Assembly: GCF_016595435.1 (NCBI RefSeq)
Contig: NZ_JAENIJ010000001.1
Span: 62,001 to 126,000, forward strand
Direction: 5' to 3'
DNA from: Luteolibacter pohnpeiensis
GTDB taxonomy: Bacteria > Verrucomicrobiota > Verrucomicrobiia > Verrucomicrobiales > Akkermansiaceae
DNA: 64,000 nucleotides
The translations under genes and the position numbers were made by a program. Positions 1,574-53,607 of the stretch are shown here, one piece after another. Each line of letters starts with the position of its first letter. Positions within the stretch are counted from its first letter, which is position 1. The notes under the pieces were generated by a model. That model had not been told where the DNA came from and did not search any database. It worked only from the letters and a program-made list of their open reading frames with translations.

Positions 1574-4500
1574 TCAGCCAACGGCTGGCTCTAGGGGCTT
1601 TTTGGGTTTCACCCGGAACAGTCGCATGACCGTGACGAAGTAAAACGGCACGAAGAATAAACCAAGGAGTGTGGTGGTGATCGCACCGCCGACGATGCCG
1701 GTGCCGACGGCATTTTGAGCGCCCGCACCCGCGCCGGTGCTCAGCGCCAGAGGCAAGGTGCCGAGACCGAAAGCGATGGAGGTCATCATGATGGGGCGTA
1801 AGCGCTGTCTGACGGCGTGGACGGTGGCTTCGATCAAGGTGGCCCCTTCGTCGAAGGCTTCTTTGGCGAACTCGACCACCAGAATGGCGTTCTTTGCCGA
1901 AAGGCCGATGATGGTGATCAAGCCGATTTGGAAATAAACATCGTTCGGCATGTTGCGGATGAAGCAAGCGCTCAGCACGCCAAGTGCTCCCAGTGGCATG
2001 TCCATCAAGACGGATACCGGGATCGCCCAGTTTTCGTAAAGTGCGGCCAGGCACATGAACACGACGAACAGGGAAAGGGTGTAAAGTAGCCCTGTTCGCG
2101 AACCGGCAAGATTCTCTTCGTAAGACAAACCGGCCCATTCAAAGGTGATGCCTGCGGGGAGTTCCTTTGCGAGATTTGCCATGACCTCCATCGCCGCGCC
2201 CGAGCTGTAGCCTGGAGCTGCGACACCGGAGATGGCGACGGATGATTTTCCGTTGAAACGCGAGAGGGTGGTCGAGCCAAGTTCCCATTGCGAGCTGATG
2301 AATGCGGAGAACGGAACCATTTCACCGTTGCCGTTACGAATATACCAGCTGTCGATGTCGTCCGGCGTCATCCGGTAATCGGCGGCTCCTTCCAGATATA
2401 CTTTTTTCACCCGGCCACGGTCGATGAAATCATTCACATAGGATGAGCCAAAGATGTTCGAGAGTTCGGTTTTGATATCGCCGATGTTAAGTCCCAGTGC
2501 GCCTGCCTTTTCGAAATTGATGTCGAGGCGGAGTTGCGGTTTGTCTTCCAGGTTGTTAGATCGGACGTTCTGGACCTCGGGACGTTGGCTGGCCATCTGG
2601 ATGAGCTTTTGCTGCGCCTCGATGAGCGCTTCGTGGCCAAGGCCCGCATTGTCCATCAGGCGGAAATCGAATCCATTGGTGTTGCCAAGTTGGCGAACTG
2701 CCGGTGGGATCATGGCGATGACTCGGGCTTCCTTGATTTGGGAAAAGGCGCCCATCGCCCGTTGCTGGATTTCTTGGATGCTTTGGCCTTTGCCTTCGCG
2801 TTCAGACCAGTCTTTCAGATGGGCGAACACCATGGCCTGGTTTTGACCGGAGCCAACAAAGCTGAACCCGGTAACGGCGAAGACCCCTTCGATCGAATCC
2901 GAAATCTGGTTGATGTAGATATCCTGGACACGCTTCAGCACTGCCTGGGTTTGTTCGGAAGTCGCGCCGGTCGGGAGTTGGACCAGGGTCATCATTTCCC
3001 CGGAGTCCTCTTCGGGAAGGAAGCTGGTGGGCAGGTGCTTGAACATCAGGACGACCCCGGCGATGATAACCAGATAGGCGGCGAGCAGCACCCATACGCG
3101 ATGCAGAGTGAATCGAACGGCTCCGCTGTAGCGCTCTGCGATGCGGTTGAAGCCACGGTTGAACCAACCAAAAAATCCGCGTTGATGCTTCGCGTCTCCC
3201 TGATGCCCCGGCTTCAACAGGGTGGCACACAGAGCGGGGGAAAAGATCAGCGCGACCACCACCGAAAGAGCGACGGAAGTGGCAAGGGTGATGGAAAACT
3301 GCCGATAGATCACGCCAGTGGAGCTGCCTAGAAATGCCATCGGTGCGAAGGCGGCGCAGAGCACGATTCCGATGCCGACGAGCGCGCCGGAAATTTGCTT
3401 CATCGATTTGACGGTCGCTTCACGGGCGGGCAATCCGTCCTCCTGCATCACGCGTTCCACGTTTTCGACGACGACGATGGCGTCATCGACCAAAAGGCCG
3501 ATTCCCAGAACGAGGCCGAAGAGGGTGAGGGTGTTGATGGAATAGCCGGCGATGGCCAGCACGCCGAAGGTGCCAAGGAGAACCACCGGAACCGCGAGAG
3601 TGGGAACCAGAGTGGCGCGGATGTTTCCCAGGAAAAGATACATCACGAAGAACACCAGGATCACGGCTTCGATCAGGGTTTTCACCACCTCTGAAATCGA
3701 GTGATGTACGAAGGCTGTCGTATCAACCGGGTAGATGACTTTGAGGCCGGTTGGGAAAGATGGCTTGAGCTCGTCCATCTTCGCCTTCACCGCAGAAACG
3801 GTGTCGAGCGCGTTGGCGCCCGGGGCGAGGCTGATGCCGAATCCGCTTGCTGGCTGGTGATTGTATTCAGCCTGCATGCTGTAGCTTTCACTGCCGAGTT
3901 CCACACGGGCGACATCTTTGAGCAGCACCTTGGAACCGTTTTCGTTTACCTTCAGCAGGATGTTTTCGAACTGGGAAACATCTTCCATCCGGCCTTGGGT
4001 GACGATGGTTGCATCGATCAGGTGGCCTTTCACGGCAGGGTCCGCACCGAGCGAGCCAGAGGAAACCTGGGCGTTTTGATCCGTGATGGCATTTTTGACA
4101 TCTTCGGAGTTCAGCTTGTATTGCATCAGCTTGGCAGGATCGAGCCAGATGCGCATGGCGTATTGGGAGCCGAAGCTGCGGACATCACCCACGCCGGAGA
4201 TTCGGCTGATGGTATCCTGCAGGTTGCCCAGGAAATAGTCGCTGATGTCCGCGCTGCCCATCTTTCCATCTTCGGAAACGAGCGCCAGCACCATCAGCAT
4301 GGAGTCGGACGCTTTGCGCACGGTGATTCCCTGATTCTGGACCTGTTGCGGCAGCATGCCGCTGGCGCTCTGGACCTTGTTTTGAACCTGAACCTGGGCA
4401 ATGTCCGGATCCGTGCCGACTTCGAAGGTGAGGTTGATCGTCGCCGTGCCGTTCGAGCTGCTGGAGGATTCCATGTAGCGCAGGTGATCGAGCCCGGTCA

Positions 4501-50703: not shown

Positions 50704-51789
50704 ATGAAGAACTTCCATTGTCAAAAGTGCGGCGAGCGGCTGTTTTTTGAAAATACCCTTTGCCTGTCTTGCTCAAGTGCCCTGGGTTTTCTTCCCGATT
50801 TTACCGAACTTGCCGTGATTGAACCGGCAGGGGATCAGGAATTCAGCACTTTGGCTAAAGGAGCTGAAGACCGCCTTTATCGGAAGTGCGCGAACTACCA
50901 GCTGGAGAATGCCTGCAATTGGATGGTTCCCGCCGATGAAACGGATGGCTTTTGTTGTGCCTGTCGGCTTAACCGGATTATTCCCGATTTAAGTGGTCTG
51001 GAAAACCGCAAGCTGTGGGTCAAAATGGAGGCTGCAAAGCGCCGCCTCATCTATGGTCTGCTGCGACTGGAATTACCCATCGTTCCGAAATCCGTTGATT
51101 TGCAGAACGGTCTGGCATTCGAGTTTCTGGCGGACCAGCCTACGACAATGGAACAGCCGGATCAGGTGGCCCGCATTCTGACGGGGCACGCGGATGGGGT
51201 GATCACCATCAATCTGGCGGAGGCAGATGATGCGGTGCGTGAAAAGACACGCATGAACATGGGGGAGGCGTATAGGACTCTGCTTGGACATTTTCGCCAC
51301 GAAAGTGCTCATTATTACTGGGATCGATTGGTGAGAAATGATCCGGGAATAGATCAAGTGCGGGCGATTTTCGGCGATGAACGGAGCAATTATCAGCTCG
51401 CGCTGCAGAACTATTATCAAACTGGAGCGCCTATCGGTTGGGAATCTTCATTCGTCACCCCCTATGCCGCATCTCACCCTTGGGAAGATTGGGCGGAAAC
51501 CTGGGCGCATTACCTTCACATCATGGCAACGCTCGAAACTGCATCCGCTGCTGGCTTGCAAATTCGGAATCGTGCCCAGAATCGCGTTCTTGCGTCTCCT
51601 TTTGGTAGAAATTTTTCGGAAATTCGCGAAGACTGGCATGCACTGCGATTCGTGGTGAATAGCCTGAATCGCAGTATGGGAATGGCTGATCCTTATCCGT
51701 TTATCCTCTCTGATGCGATCACTGAGAAGCTCTCCTTTATCCATCATTGGATCCGGAAAGACCGCGAGGTGGCCCAGTTAGTCGGCTGA
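50704..51789 (+). CDS. Zinc-ribbon zinc-metallopeptidase-like protein (Peptidase_Mx type)
   Basis: The 361-residue protein has an N-terminal zinc ribbon with CQKCGERL and CLSCSSALGFLPDF, and a second cysteine cluster (CANYQLENACNW...CCACRLNR). The catalytic zincin motif HESAH lies near residue 201, with a downstream EDWAETWAHYLH that could provide a third ligand. This layout is typical of putative zinc-binding metallopeptidases of the Mx family. It has no signal peptide and is probably cytoplasmic. Its stop codon lies one base before the sigma-54 promoter of small RNA 1. Confidence 0.88.
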   Translation: MKNFHCQKCGERLFFENTLCLSCSSALGFLPDFTELAVIEPAGDQEFSTLAKGAEDRLYRKCANYQLENACNWMVPADETDGFCCACRLNRIIPDLSGLENRKLWVKMEAAKRRLIYGLLRLELPIVPKSVDLQNGLAFEFLADQPTTMEQPDQVARILTGHADGVITINLAEADDAVREKTRMNMGEAYRTLLGHFRHESAHYYWDRLVRNDPGIDQVRAIFGDERSNYQLALQNYYQTGAPIGWESSFVTPYAASHPWEDWAETWAHYLHIMATLETASAAGLQIRNRAQNRVLASPFGRNFSEIREDWHALRFVVNSLNRSMGMADPYPFILSDAITEKLSFIHHWIRKDREVAQLVG

Positions 51790-51790
51790 T

Positions 51791-51807
51791 TTGGCACGGC
51801 CATTGCT
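51791..51807 (+). promoter_or_regulatory. Sigma-54 promoter of small RNA 1
   Basis: TTGGCACG-N4-TTGCT is an almost exact match to the sigma-54 consensus, with GG at 51793-51794 and GC at 51805-51806 (ten bases between). Transcription should start near 51818. It needs an enhancer-binding protein, which is not encoded in this window. Confidence 0.8.
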
Positions 51808-51817
51808 TTTGCATTTC

Positions 51818-51900
51818 TCGTCGTGGCATACAAATGGCCCGACTGAGATGCCTTTGGTTAATGGGTTTTCCGAAGGATGATCAGTCGGGCCATTTTCTTT
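51818..51900 (+). ncRNA. Candidate sigma-54-dependent small RNA 1
   Basis: The predicted RNA of about 83 nt has a short leader and then one long hairpin. The outer stem is 13 bp (ATGGCCCGACTGA at 51834-51846 with TCAGTCGGGCCAT at 51881-51893). An internal loop (GATG opposite ATGA) follows, then an inner stem CCTTTGG/CCGAAGG (51851-51857, 51870-51876) closed by a 12-nt loop TTAATGGGTTTT. It ends in TTTTCTTT, so the hairpin also serves as terminator. The same architecture recurs at 52178 with compensatory changes. It lies in a gap without protein genes. Confidence 0.75.
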
Positions 51901-51925
51901 GTACATCATTCTTTGTACATCATTC
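51898..51925 (+). repeat. Tandem 14-bp duplication after small RNA 1
   Basis: TTTGTACATCATTC occurs twice without a gap (51898-51911 and 51912-51925), overlapping the end of the terminator T-run. It is not present after small RNA 2. Confidence 0.8.
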
Positions 51926-52150
51926 TTTTTGCTTCTTTTGGCGGTGCTTTTCACAGAGCAAATCCTGACCGCAGTCCATGTCTCTCCGGACACCTTCAGC
52001 ATCCGATGATCGATGGATCAATCGCGTGTTTCAGTAAAGCTTTGAGCCGCAATGGCTTCGTCAATCCAGACAAGCCATATCTAGCAAATCATGAGCAAAT
52101 GGCAGCCTCTGAACAAATTTCTACGAAGTTTTTGGCGATTCGCCGAAAAC
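51926..52150. other. Spacer between the two small-RNA units
   Basis: About 225 bp without a supported gene. As the region upstream of small RNA 2 it may contain enhancer sites for the sigma-54 activator, but I could not pick out a clear repeated palindrome. Confidence 0.4.
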
Positions 52151-52167
52151 TTGGCACGACCAATGCT
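52151..52167 (+). promoter_or_regulatory. Sigma-54 promoter of small RNA 2
   Basis: TTGGCACG-N5-TGCT with GG at 52153-52154 and GC at 52165-52166 (ten bases between). It differs from the first promoter at two spacer positions only. The predicted start is near 52178. Confidence 0.8.
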
Positions 52168-52177
52168 TTTCTTCAGG

Positions 52178-52266
52178 TGTCGCGACACTAAAGCAGGCGG
52201 TCCGACTGAGATGCTCTAAGGTTAATGGGTTTTCCGCGGAGATGATCAGTCGGGCCGCTTCTTTTC
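52178..52266 (+). ncRNA. Candidate sigma-54-dependent small RNA 2
   Basis: The predicted RNA of about 89 nt starts in a short perfect palindrome GTGTCGCGACAC (52177-52188). The main hairpin has outer arms GCGGTCCGACTGA (52197-52209) and TCAGTCGGGCCGC (52246-52258), the same internal loop GATG/ATGA, a weaker inner stem (CTCTAAGG with CCGCGGAG, two mismatches) and the identical loop TTAATGGGTTTT. A T-rich tract (TTCTTTTC) follows. The outer A-T and T-A pairs of copy 1 are G-C and C-G here, so the helix is preserved although the sequence changed. Confidence 0.75.
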
Positions 52267-52291: not shown

Positions 52292-52327
52292 CAAAAAAGT
52301 CCCCTGCCTCCAAAATGAAGCAGGGGA
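52292..52327 (-). terminator. Terminator of the flavin reductase operon
   Basis: A 7-bp perfect inverted repeat (CCCCTGC and GCAGGGG) is followed on the minus strand by a run of six T (plus-strand A-run 52294-52299). Confidence 0.88.
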
Positions 52328-52403: not shown

Positions 52404-52973
52404 TCACTTCGAGGATTCAATCAGCGATTGGACGAGTCCACGAATCTGTTGTGTCAGAGCGTCATCTTTCAATGCTCCATTTTCATCGAAGGCGAGATGT
52501 GATTCCGCAACGGTGACTTGGGCAGGAATGACCTGTGTGCCGATATTTTGCAGGATCAAGCGGAGCGAATCCAAGCCGCGGACGCCACCGTAGTGCGATG
52601 GCGAGGCTGCCAAAATCGCGGCCGTCTTGCCCTTGAAAATGGCGGCCGGTCCTTCTGCTTCCTCGTCAGCACGCGAAATCCAATCGAGCGCATTTTTCAA
52701 GGCACCACTGATCGCGCTGTTGTATTCAGGCGAGGCAATGACGTAGGCGTCATGAGCCGCGAACAATGCCTTGAGTTCCTTGGCTTTTTCCGGTTTTCCG
52801 GATTTTTCTTCATCGTCCTGATTGAAAACCGGAAGAGGAAAGTCCGCCAGGGAGGATAAGGTGACTTCCGCGCCCAATTCTGAGGCTTCTTTCGCGGCTA
52901 GTGCTGCGAGCGCCTGATTGAAGGAGGCGGCACGCATGCTCCCGCCAAAAACAAGAATTCGAGGTGTTTTCAT
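52404..52973 (-). CDS. NADPH-dependent FMN reductase family protein
   Basis: The 189-residue protein has a flavodoxin-like fold. The phosphate loop is FGGSMRAASFN (about residues 8-18), and SPEYNSAISGALKNALDWIS (about 80-100) is the conserved flavin and dimer segment. It should reduce FMN, quinones or azo compounds with NAD(P)H in the cytoplasm. It follows the YceI gene by 7 bp and probably shares its transcript. Start 52973 (MKTPRILVFGG) is chosen over an open frame to 53015 that would overlap YceI. Confidence 0.92.
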   Translation of the reverse strand: MKTPRILVFGGSMRAASFNQALAALAAKEASELGAEVTLSSLADFPLPVFNQDDEEKSGKPEKAKELKALFAAHDAYVIASPEYNSAISGALKNALDWISRADEEAEGPAAIFKGKTAAILAASPSHYGGVRGLDSLRLILQNIGTQVIPAQVTVAESHLAFDENGALKDDALTQQIRGLVQSLIESSK

Positions 52974-52980
52974 GTTCCGA

Positions 52981-53607
52981 TCAGGCTTCAGGTTTCGCTT
53001 CCATTTTGAGCTCAACGACCACTTCGTCGCGGATCAAGTCGTCGGCTTTGCCAGCATAGACAATGTTGAAATCCTTGCGATTGATATCGAACTTCGAATA
53101 GATCGCGACGCTCTCGCTGTTGCGGGTGACGGTCGCCGGAAACGAGATATTTTTGGTGACGCCGTGCAGGGTGAGGTTGCCGGCGACGGTGTAGCCAGTT
53201 TCGGAATCTTTCTTGATGGAAGTTACGTCGAAGGTGGATTTTGGATATTGATCGACATCGAAGAAATCGCTGCTTTTCAGGTGCGTCGTCAGCTTGTCGT
53301 CGTCCGCCCAAGCGGAATCCATGGTGATTTCGACTTTGTGATCGAGGCCGGTAGGCTCTCCATCCTTGATGGTGAAATAGCCGCTGAACGTTTTGAATCC
53401 GCCGTTGTGGCTGCCGGTCACCTTTGAGCCGATGAAATGGATTTCGGAGTTGGCGGTGAAGGTGTATTTGGTGCCGACAACTGCAGGATCGTCCGCTTTT
53501 TCCACAGCGGGTGCGACCTTGGCGGCTTCTGTCTTGTCAGCGGGATTTTCGCAAGAGGCGAACAAAACTGGGGCGGTGGCTGCCAGGGCGAGGTATTTGA
53601 ATTTCAT
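52981..53607 (-). CDS. YceI-like lipoprotein
   Basis: The 208-residue protein has a lipobox LFASC (Cys19). After an Ala/Lys-rich linker comes the YceI lipocalin-like domain (about 45-205), with HFIGSKVTGSHNGGFKTFSG, LKSSDFFDVDQYPKSTF and NLTLHGVTKNISFPATV. YceI proteins bind isoprenoid-type lipids in the periplasm. It is the first gene of a two-gene operon with a flavin reductase and is divergent from a LysR regulator, which is the probable controller. Confidence 0.93.
   Translation of the reverse strand: MKFKYLALAATAPVLFASCENPADKTEAAKVAPAVEKADDPAVVGTKYTFTANSEIHFIGSKVTGSHNGGFKTFSGYFTIKDGEPTGLDHKVEITMDSAWADDDKLTTHLKSSDFFDVDQYPKSTFDVTSIKKDSETGYTVAGNLTLHGVTKNISFPATVTRNSESVAIYSKFDINRKDFNIVYAGKADDLIRDEVVVELKMEAKPEA

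Follow-up and report, generated by a model that had tools for sequence, protein, structure and literature searches.

Twin hairpins of Luteolibacter pohnpeiensis as probable genes of a conserved, multicopy small RNA family with differing predicted promoters

The window analysed here, a stretch of 64,000 nt of Luteolibacter pohnpeiensis DNA, holds two closely similar hairpins on the same strand, and the question is what these hairpins are and why two of them are kept. A preliminary description had pointed to compensatory base changes between the stems and to loops that stay fixed, and had suggested a conserved RNA fold. In both copies an outer stem of 14-15 bp is followed by a 4x4 internal loop (GATG/ATGA), an inner stem and a 16-nt apical sequence GGTTAATGGGTTTTCC (Table 1). 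As described, the apical sequence and the internal loop are identical in the two copies, the outermost pairs A-T and T-A of copy 1 are G-C and C-G in copy 2 (alignment columns 22/86 and 23/85), the inner-stem pairs C-G and T-A of copy 1 are T-A and C-G in copy 2 (columns 40/68 and 41/67), and two mismatches are present in the inner stem of copy 2. The RNA fold has an energy of -38.2 kcal/mol for copy 1 (z -6.5) and -36.0 kcal/mol for copy 2 (z -4.8), and 0 of 200 shuffles were as good in either case.

The earlier description overlooked a promoter-driven gene, a role as terminator and the existence of further copies. Judged from the sequence, each hairpin is the 3' half of a putative small RNA gene of about 80 nt with its own predicted promoter, from which it would be transcribed, and we are confident that the hairpins are genes of a real and conserved small RNA family.

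Table 1. Positions of the hairpins, predicted genes and candidate promoters in the window
Feature	Position	Strand	Basis and remarks
Copy 1 candidate sigma-54-type promoter TGGCACGGCCATTGC	51792..51806	+	GG 51793-51794, GC 51805-51806; read in sequence
Copy 1 predicted sRNA gene, 5' GTCGTGGCA	51819..51900	+	covariance model, 90.9 bits; in the model's own seed
Copy 1 hairpin	51832-51895	+	fold
Copy 1 outer stem, 5' arm	51832..51846	+	pairs with 51881-51895; fold and covariation
Copy 1 internal loop GATG	51847..51850	+	ATGA opposite at 51877-51880; fold
Copy 1 inner stem, 5' arm	51851..51857	+	pairs with 51870-51876; fold
Copy 1 apical loop TTAATGGGTTTT	51858..51869	+	invariant part of the family; alignment and loop reading
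Copy 1 outer stem, 3' arm and U-rich tail (predicted terminator)	51881..51901	+	T-content of 3' ends
Copy 2 candidate sigma-54-type promoter TGGCACGACCAATGC	52152..52166	+	GC 52165-52166; read in sequence
Copy 2 predicted sRNA gene, 5' TGTCGCGACA	52178..52265	+	covariance model, 99.9 bits; in the model's own seed
Copy 2 hairpin	52196-52259	+	fold
Copy 2 outer stem, 5' arm	52196..52209	+	pairs with 52246-52259; fold, alignment and covariation
Copy 2 internal loop GATG	52210..52213	+	ATGA opposite at 52242-52245; fold
Copy 2 inner stem, 5' side (CTCT..GG, two mismatches)	52214..52221	+	pairs with 52234-52241; fold
Copy 2 apical loop TTAATGGGTTTT	52222..52233	+	alignment and loop reading
Copy 2 outer stem, 3' arm and U-rich tail (predicted terminator)	52246..52266	+	sequence; T-content of 3' ends

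Two copies alone prove little, and we therefore compared 135 distinct relatives. The 191 model matches were reduced to 147 by dropping overlaps and repeats seen via two loci, three antisense duplicates were further removed by hand, and the 135 distinct cores were aligned with MAFFT on sequence only. Sixteen pairs were counted, 14 of the outer stem and two at the base of the inner stem. Standard pairs make up 97.0% of the 2160 cells, 13 of the 16 pairs change on both sides (77 such cells) and none of 500 shuffles reaches any of five covariation measures; it should be noted that these counts are inflated by relatedness and that a structure model was used to retrieve most of the members. When the partner was slid by 1-3 columns the pairing fell to 24-48%. 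As a control for the selection bias we used 31 matches found by a sequence pattern alone, in which all 186 of the outer pairs left free by the pattern are intact; this control adds little, because there is so little variation in these pairs that 14 of 500 re-dealings perform equally well. The proposed fold with compensatory stem changes is borne out by the wider comparison, and both uncompensated stem changes and a freely varying loop were sought in the wider family and found absent.

The statement that the loops stay fixed holds for the apical loop but not for the internal loop GATG/ATGA, which only one subtype keeps unchanged (columns 38-42 and 84-88). The loop TTAATGGGTTTT is identical in 69 of the 174 copies read and has one extra T in 26 more, and other members retain TT..GGG.TTT, as read by a regular expression whose frame can be mis-set in the second subtype. 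The pair closing the apical loop swaps between G-C, A-T and G-U while remaining paired in places. Distant members from other families have a loop of like kind, e.g. TTATGGGGGTTT.

Upstream of both window copies we find TGGCACG-N4-[TA]TGC, which we take to be the -24/-12 pattern of sigma-54, followed 12-13 nt later by GTCG. The conserved 5' end of the RNA is GTCGC with a small 5' hairpin, and transcription is predicted to start at about 51818-51820 in copy 1, 12 nt past the GC element, and at about 52178-52179 in copy 2. For the wider family we considered 176 copies, distinct by the 40 nt upstream plus the core, of which 150 had 60 nt of upstream sequence and GTCGC-like letters to serve as an anchor, and 26 were left out. 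Requiring GG-N10-GC and at least 8 matches to the consensus, a sigma-54 element was called in 57 of the 150 anchored copies and in 0.9% of shuffled upstreams (a first count had given 53 of 143). The distance from GC to GTCGC in the 57 copies is 12 nt in 51 and 13 nt in 6, and 55 of them have the loop subtype TTA.TGGG.

The other 93 copies show TTG[AC][AC] starting at -35 in 36 cases and at -34 in 15 (51 in total), and a cruder two-hexamer score is reached by 57 of them, though also by 16% of shuffles. AGACARA is found upstream in nine of the 93, and from a reading of the rows by eye eight of these seem to share a GCGTT-like element; the AGACAAA type is possibly a promoter for an ECF sigma factor. 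This third kind, AGACAAA followed by GCGTT-like letters, was noted at L035, L036, L045, L079, L110, L118, L145 and L149. Under a stricter rule 61 of the 176 copies are left with no promoter call. As the differing kinds of promoter stand at a matching distance they point to one common start base, and the 5' end is thereby fixed. Sigma-54 and -35-type copies occur together in at least 21 genomes, two of which (G029 and G034) have all three kinds. Parsimony gives a minimum of 6 switches between the sigma-54 and the -35 type, on a quick and weakly resolved tree of the short cores.

RpoN (PF04552) was detected in 57 of 59 genomes (in the own genome at C210:47260-47733), and since nearly all genomes have rpoN its presence does not discriminate between them. 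A search for an enhancer site shared by the sigma-54 copies gave none that was clearly specific when 47 de-duplicated upstreams were set against 96 others, the top words being A/T-rich runs and GGCGATGA. A copy of the RNA in G035 lies about 2.3 kb from rpoN (G035:C26:1621-2091 and 4364-4451).

At the other end of the gene, at least six of the 3'-terminal 10 nt are T in 159 of the 176 copies, compared with 29 of 176 just before the core; as the hairpin ends in a U-run it would also be the terminator. A small ORF reading from the ATG of the loop was considered and rejected, as ATGGG is absent in 67 of the 176 copies and, of the 109 that have it, 58 run into a stop after 4 or 6 codons.

The own genome contains the loop pattern exactly three times, with a fourth hairpin at two mismatches; in all, the loop-pattern search matched ten places, two of them on the minus strand (L006 and L008), L006 lying inside a long ORF. 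A covariance model built from these four copies finds seven sense copies in this genome at E about 1e-8 or better, and its eight other matches there at E up to 1 are six antisense of sense copies and two weak ones. At E up to 0.01 a match is present in 45 of 59 relatives, namely in all 37 genomes of the genus, the own genome included, and in 8 of the 22 from other families of the order. A model built on 135 copies gives matches in 118 of 288 genomes of the order (E up to 0.001), and a draw across the phylum gave 14 matching genomes of 337 at E up to 1e-4, of which 13 belong to the same order. As far as these sequence models reach, weaker members appear across the order and the family seems nearly absent beyond it. 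Genus g18 of the same family, with small and complete genomes, has no match among the matches listed. Genomes that carry the RNA have 1-11 matches among those listed, with some copies in tandem. A plain sequence pattern retrieved 35 contigs, all metagenome assemblies titled Verrucomicrobia, Verrucomicrobiaceae, Akkermansiaceae, Akkermansia or Luteolibacter, and from the sample names most of these seem to come from lakes; a DNA search of plasmid records found nothing. We also note a diverged copy directly after an intact one (L001:1614-1716, the same as L013:1662-1749), with the loop TTTTTGCGTGTTTT and no clear promoter, which is perhaps decaying.

What might such an RNA do? On balance we favour a family of trans-acting sibling sRNAs, in which the invariant loop would pair with mRNAs near their start codons. 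According to this explanation a short non-coding RNA of about 80 nt would start from a promoter of its own, placed at a fixed distance, and end at the hairpin and U-run, and the copies, whether they carry a sigma-54, a -35/-10 or the rarer AGACAAA promoter, would all be set to the same start base. The exposed loop UUAAUGGGUUUU would pair, loop to linear RNA, with AAACCCA-like sequences beside the start codons of targets and thereby change the translation of these mRNAs, and the different promoters would feed different signals into one shared set of targets. Hfq (PF17209) and CsrA (PF02599) were each found in 0 of 39 genomes (control genomes were positive in 5 of 14 and 3 of 14, respectively), and the pairing would therefore take place unaided or via another protein.

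Apart from the apical loop, no unpaired stretch of appreciable length is conserved, and the complement of this loop was therefore tested near gene starts. Over 1.25 Mb of the own genome, AAACCC outnumbers every other permutation of its letters (20 in all) at -25 to -5 (30 against a mean of 8.9), and AAACCCAT is the commonest of 280 permutations at -30 to +5 (8 against 0.8), on starts called by a simple script and with words and windows refined on this genome, the idea of testing the loop complement having preceded the refinement. Eight-nt words of the loop complement at -40 to +20 of starts number 42 in the same 1.25 Mb, which 1 of 200 shuffled words reaches; the corresponding numbers are 11 (6 of 200) in 0.4 Mb of the carrier G009 and 1 (157 of 200) in 0.4 Mb of the non-carrier G060, a family member. 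Pooled starts of other family genomes (553, from 169 loci) gave no enrichment, with 5 against 4.6 expected, and AAACCC in 541 pooled starts of other genomes came to 6 against 3.75, so that the signal was not repeated there. A test on duplex energies was weak, with shuffles as good or better in 2 of 60 for the own genome, 8 of 60 for G009 and 10 of 60 for the non-carrier G060. The A/C-rich composition of start regions may explain part of the target signal. That the loop pairs near start codons seems to us a fairly close call, and we stay slightly on the doubtful side of it.

Start regions with AAACCCA include those of the ORFs at L246:5770, L246:8387 and L215:1725. AAACCCA was also noted near the starts of several ORFs (window 9489, L208:16390, L209:1680, L227:5915, L249:7992 and L220:18839) which, judged by eye from their first residues, look like genes for sugar uptake or breakdown: fucose permease-like, glucan phosphorylase-like, a sugar porter, GH57-like, sugar kinase-like and sulfatase-like. 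More tentatively, we speculate on a hub RNA that works without Hfq or CsrA, its copies wired to their own sigma factors and one loop marking an AAACCCA-box regulon. Up to eleven matches per genome would then be driven by sigma-54, by the housekeeping type or by the third AGACAAA type, perhaps of an ECF factor, from the same start base, with the boxes beside the start codons.

The conserved loop could instead serve a protein, the RNA acting as a decoy that titrates an RNA-binding protein through its loop and internal loop, as CsrB and RsmY do for CsrA and GlmY for RapZ. The loop is kept over its whole length in many copies, which is more than a seed of 7-8 nt needs, the sequence of the outer stem is also well kept in the 135-core alignment, and many copies raise the dosage. 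Against this stand the lack of CsrA and Hfq matches in all 39 genomes searched, the internal loop that is kept in one subtype only, and the loop complement enriched at starts in two carriers; we consider a decoy unlikely.

The trans-acting family that we favour is also to be judged from the genes around its copies. A Peptidase_Mx gene (50704-51789) precedes copy 1, its stop codon 43 nt before the copy, and a convergent FMN reductase gene (52404-53015) follows copy 2, with a minus-strand, terminator-like hairpin between the two (52300-52327). Directly 3' of the copy 1 terminator lie two perfect tandem 14-nt units TTCTTTGTACATCA (window 51895-51922). Elsewhere the neighbours, identified by a Pfam run on 20 representatives, are DsbD, PqiA, FAA hydrolase, SelR, aminotransferase IV, an AraC-type regulator, a pyruvate carboxylase type, an aspartyl-tRNA synthetase type, DUF1015 and others, in both orientations. 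As the neighbouring genes differ and occur in both orientations, there is no single cis target. Several positions of copies are common to multiple genomes (the dsbD side, the aminotransferase and other clusters), and varied neighbours along with shared positions favour a trans-acting RNA over a leader or a mobile repeat. We find it likely that the RNA acts in trans.

A cis-acting role as leader, attenuator or riboswitch for the gene that follows would suit those copies that have a gene 50-300 nt downstream on their own strand, such as FAA hydrolase or aminotransferase IV. However, the next genes vary and are often on the opposite strand, window copy 2 is followed by the terminator-like hairpin and the convergent gene, and the hairpin itself ends in a U-run behind predicted promoters of its own, which makes a cis role very improbable. 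Just as improbable is a dispersed repeat of the REP or MITE kind, kept by copying and not by function: several copies per genome, tandem arrays and near-identical cores at different places would suit it, but the copies are few per genome, their positions are shared between genomes, different kinds of promoter stand at one fixed distance, and the stems covary. Ordinary strong terminators of neighbouring genes, alike by chance, would account for the stem, the U-run and the place of copy 1 behind the metallopeptidase gene but hardly for a fixed loop with varying stems, a conserved 5' part, promoters at fixed spacing and neighbours on either strand, and are the least probable of all. Simple terminators, cis leaders and REP-like repeats were thus set aside on covariation, neighbours and promoter spacing.

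A comparison with Rfam 15 (4227 families) at the gathering cut-off yielded only tRNA in the window and no match on a copy in ten further loci, and at E up to 5 gave four chance-level matches, the best with 16.6 bits against a cut-off of 80. We found no publication on this RNA family in open-licence full texts. Several related, independently promoted copies, the mark of a sibling family, are present here, the promoters being called by sequence only. For promoters of two sigma factors on homologous sRNAs, GlmY/GlmZ appear to be the nearest parallel. These RNAs are longer than the one of about 80 nt here, and their sigma-70/sigma-54 promoter arrangement was reportedly described by Reichenbach et al. 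in 2009. They are sibling sRNAs of enterobacteria transcribed from overlapping promoters for sigma-70 and sigma-54, with the kind differing between species, and as two genes they act with RapZ and Hfq on glmS (PMC4098024). In contrast, the promoter kinds in the present family do not overlap on one copy but are predicted sequence elements on different copies (57 and 51 of 150), and the RNA has no homology to GlmY/GlmZ by Rfam models.

The Qrr sRNAs are sigma-54-dependent, which is a point of likeness, and Hfq-dependent, whereas no Hfq was found in the 39 genomes searched here, and the RNA has no Rfam match to Qrr. Like the Qrr sRNAs of Vibrio, it is encoded by related, dispersed genes, several per genome; for Qrr these are 4-5 per genome (PMC4211561). 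Multicopy or tandem sRNAs are likewise seen in LhrC of Listeria, AbcR, OmrA/OmrB and the csRNA siblings, again with no Rfam match here, and differing promoters are described for the siblings OmrA/OmrB and RsmY/RsmZ (parts of PMC4132741 and PMC4211561). In the same parts we found no description, for LhrC, AbcR, OmrA/OmrB or csRNA, of sigma-54 and a second kind of promoter on different copies in one genome. We suggest that the RNA is so far uncatalogued, resembling sibling sRNAs but, from these comparisons, apparently no member of the known families.

Very few regulatory RNAs are known from this phylum; for the Planctomycetes-Verrucomicrobia-Chlamydiae group as a whole, a review of 2022 lists 8 distinct annotated sRNAs (PMC9029176). 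The present one, conserved over an order and in many copies, offers a test case for sRNA function in bacteria without recognisable Hfq or CsrA, and for an RNA gene that would change its controlling sigma factor while the start base stays put.

One Rfam sRNA entry, Acido-Lenti-1 (RF01687), does occur in the same genomes, even between copies of this RNA family, but it differs in sequence and fold, and the hairpins themselves are not matched by its model. Acido-Lenti-1 has matches in 45 of 59 relatives, with up to 45 per genome. It forms inverted pairs 148 nt apart, as at L092:1876-1920 (-), 2024-2077 (+), 2721-2765 (-) and 2869-2922 (+), and an array of 68-nt period in G058:C38, and looks like a repeat of the REP/BIME type rather than an sRNA gene.
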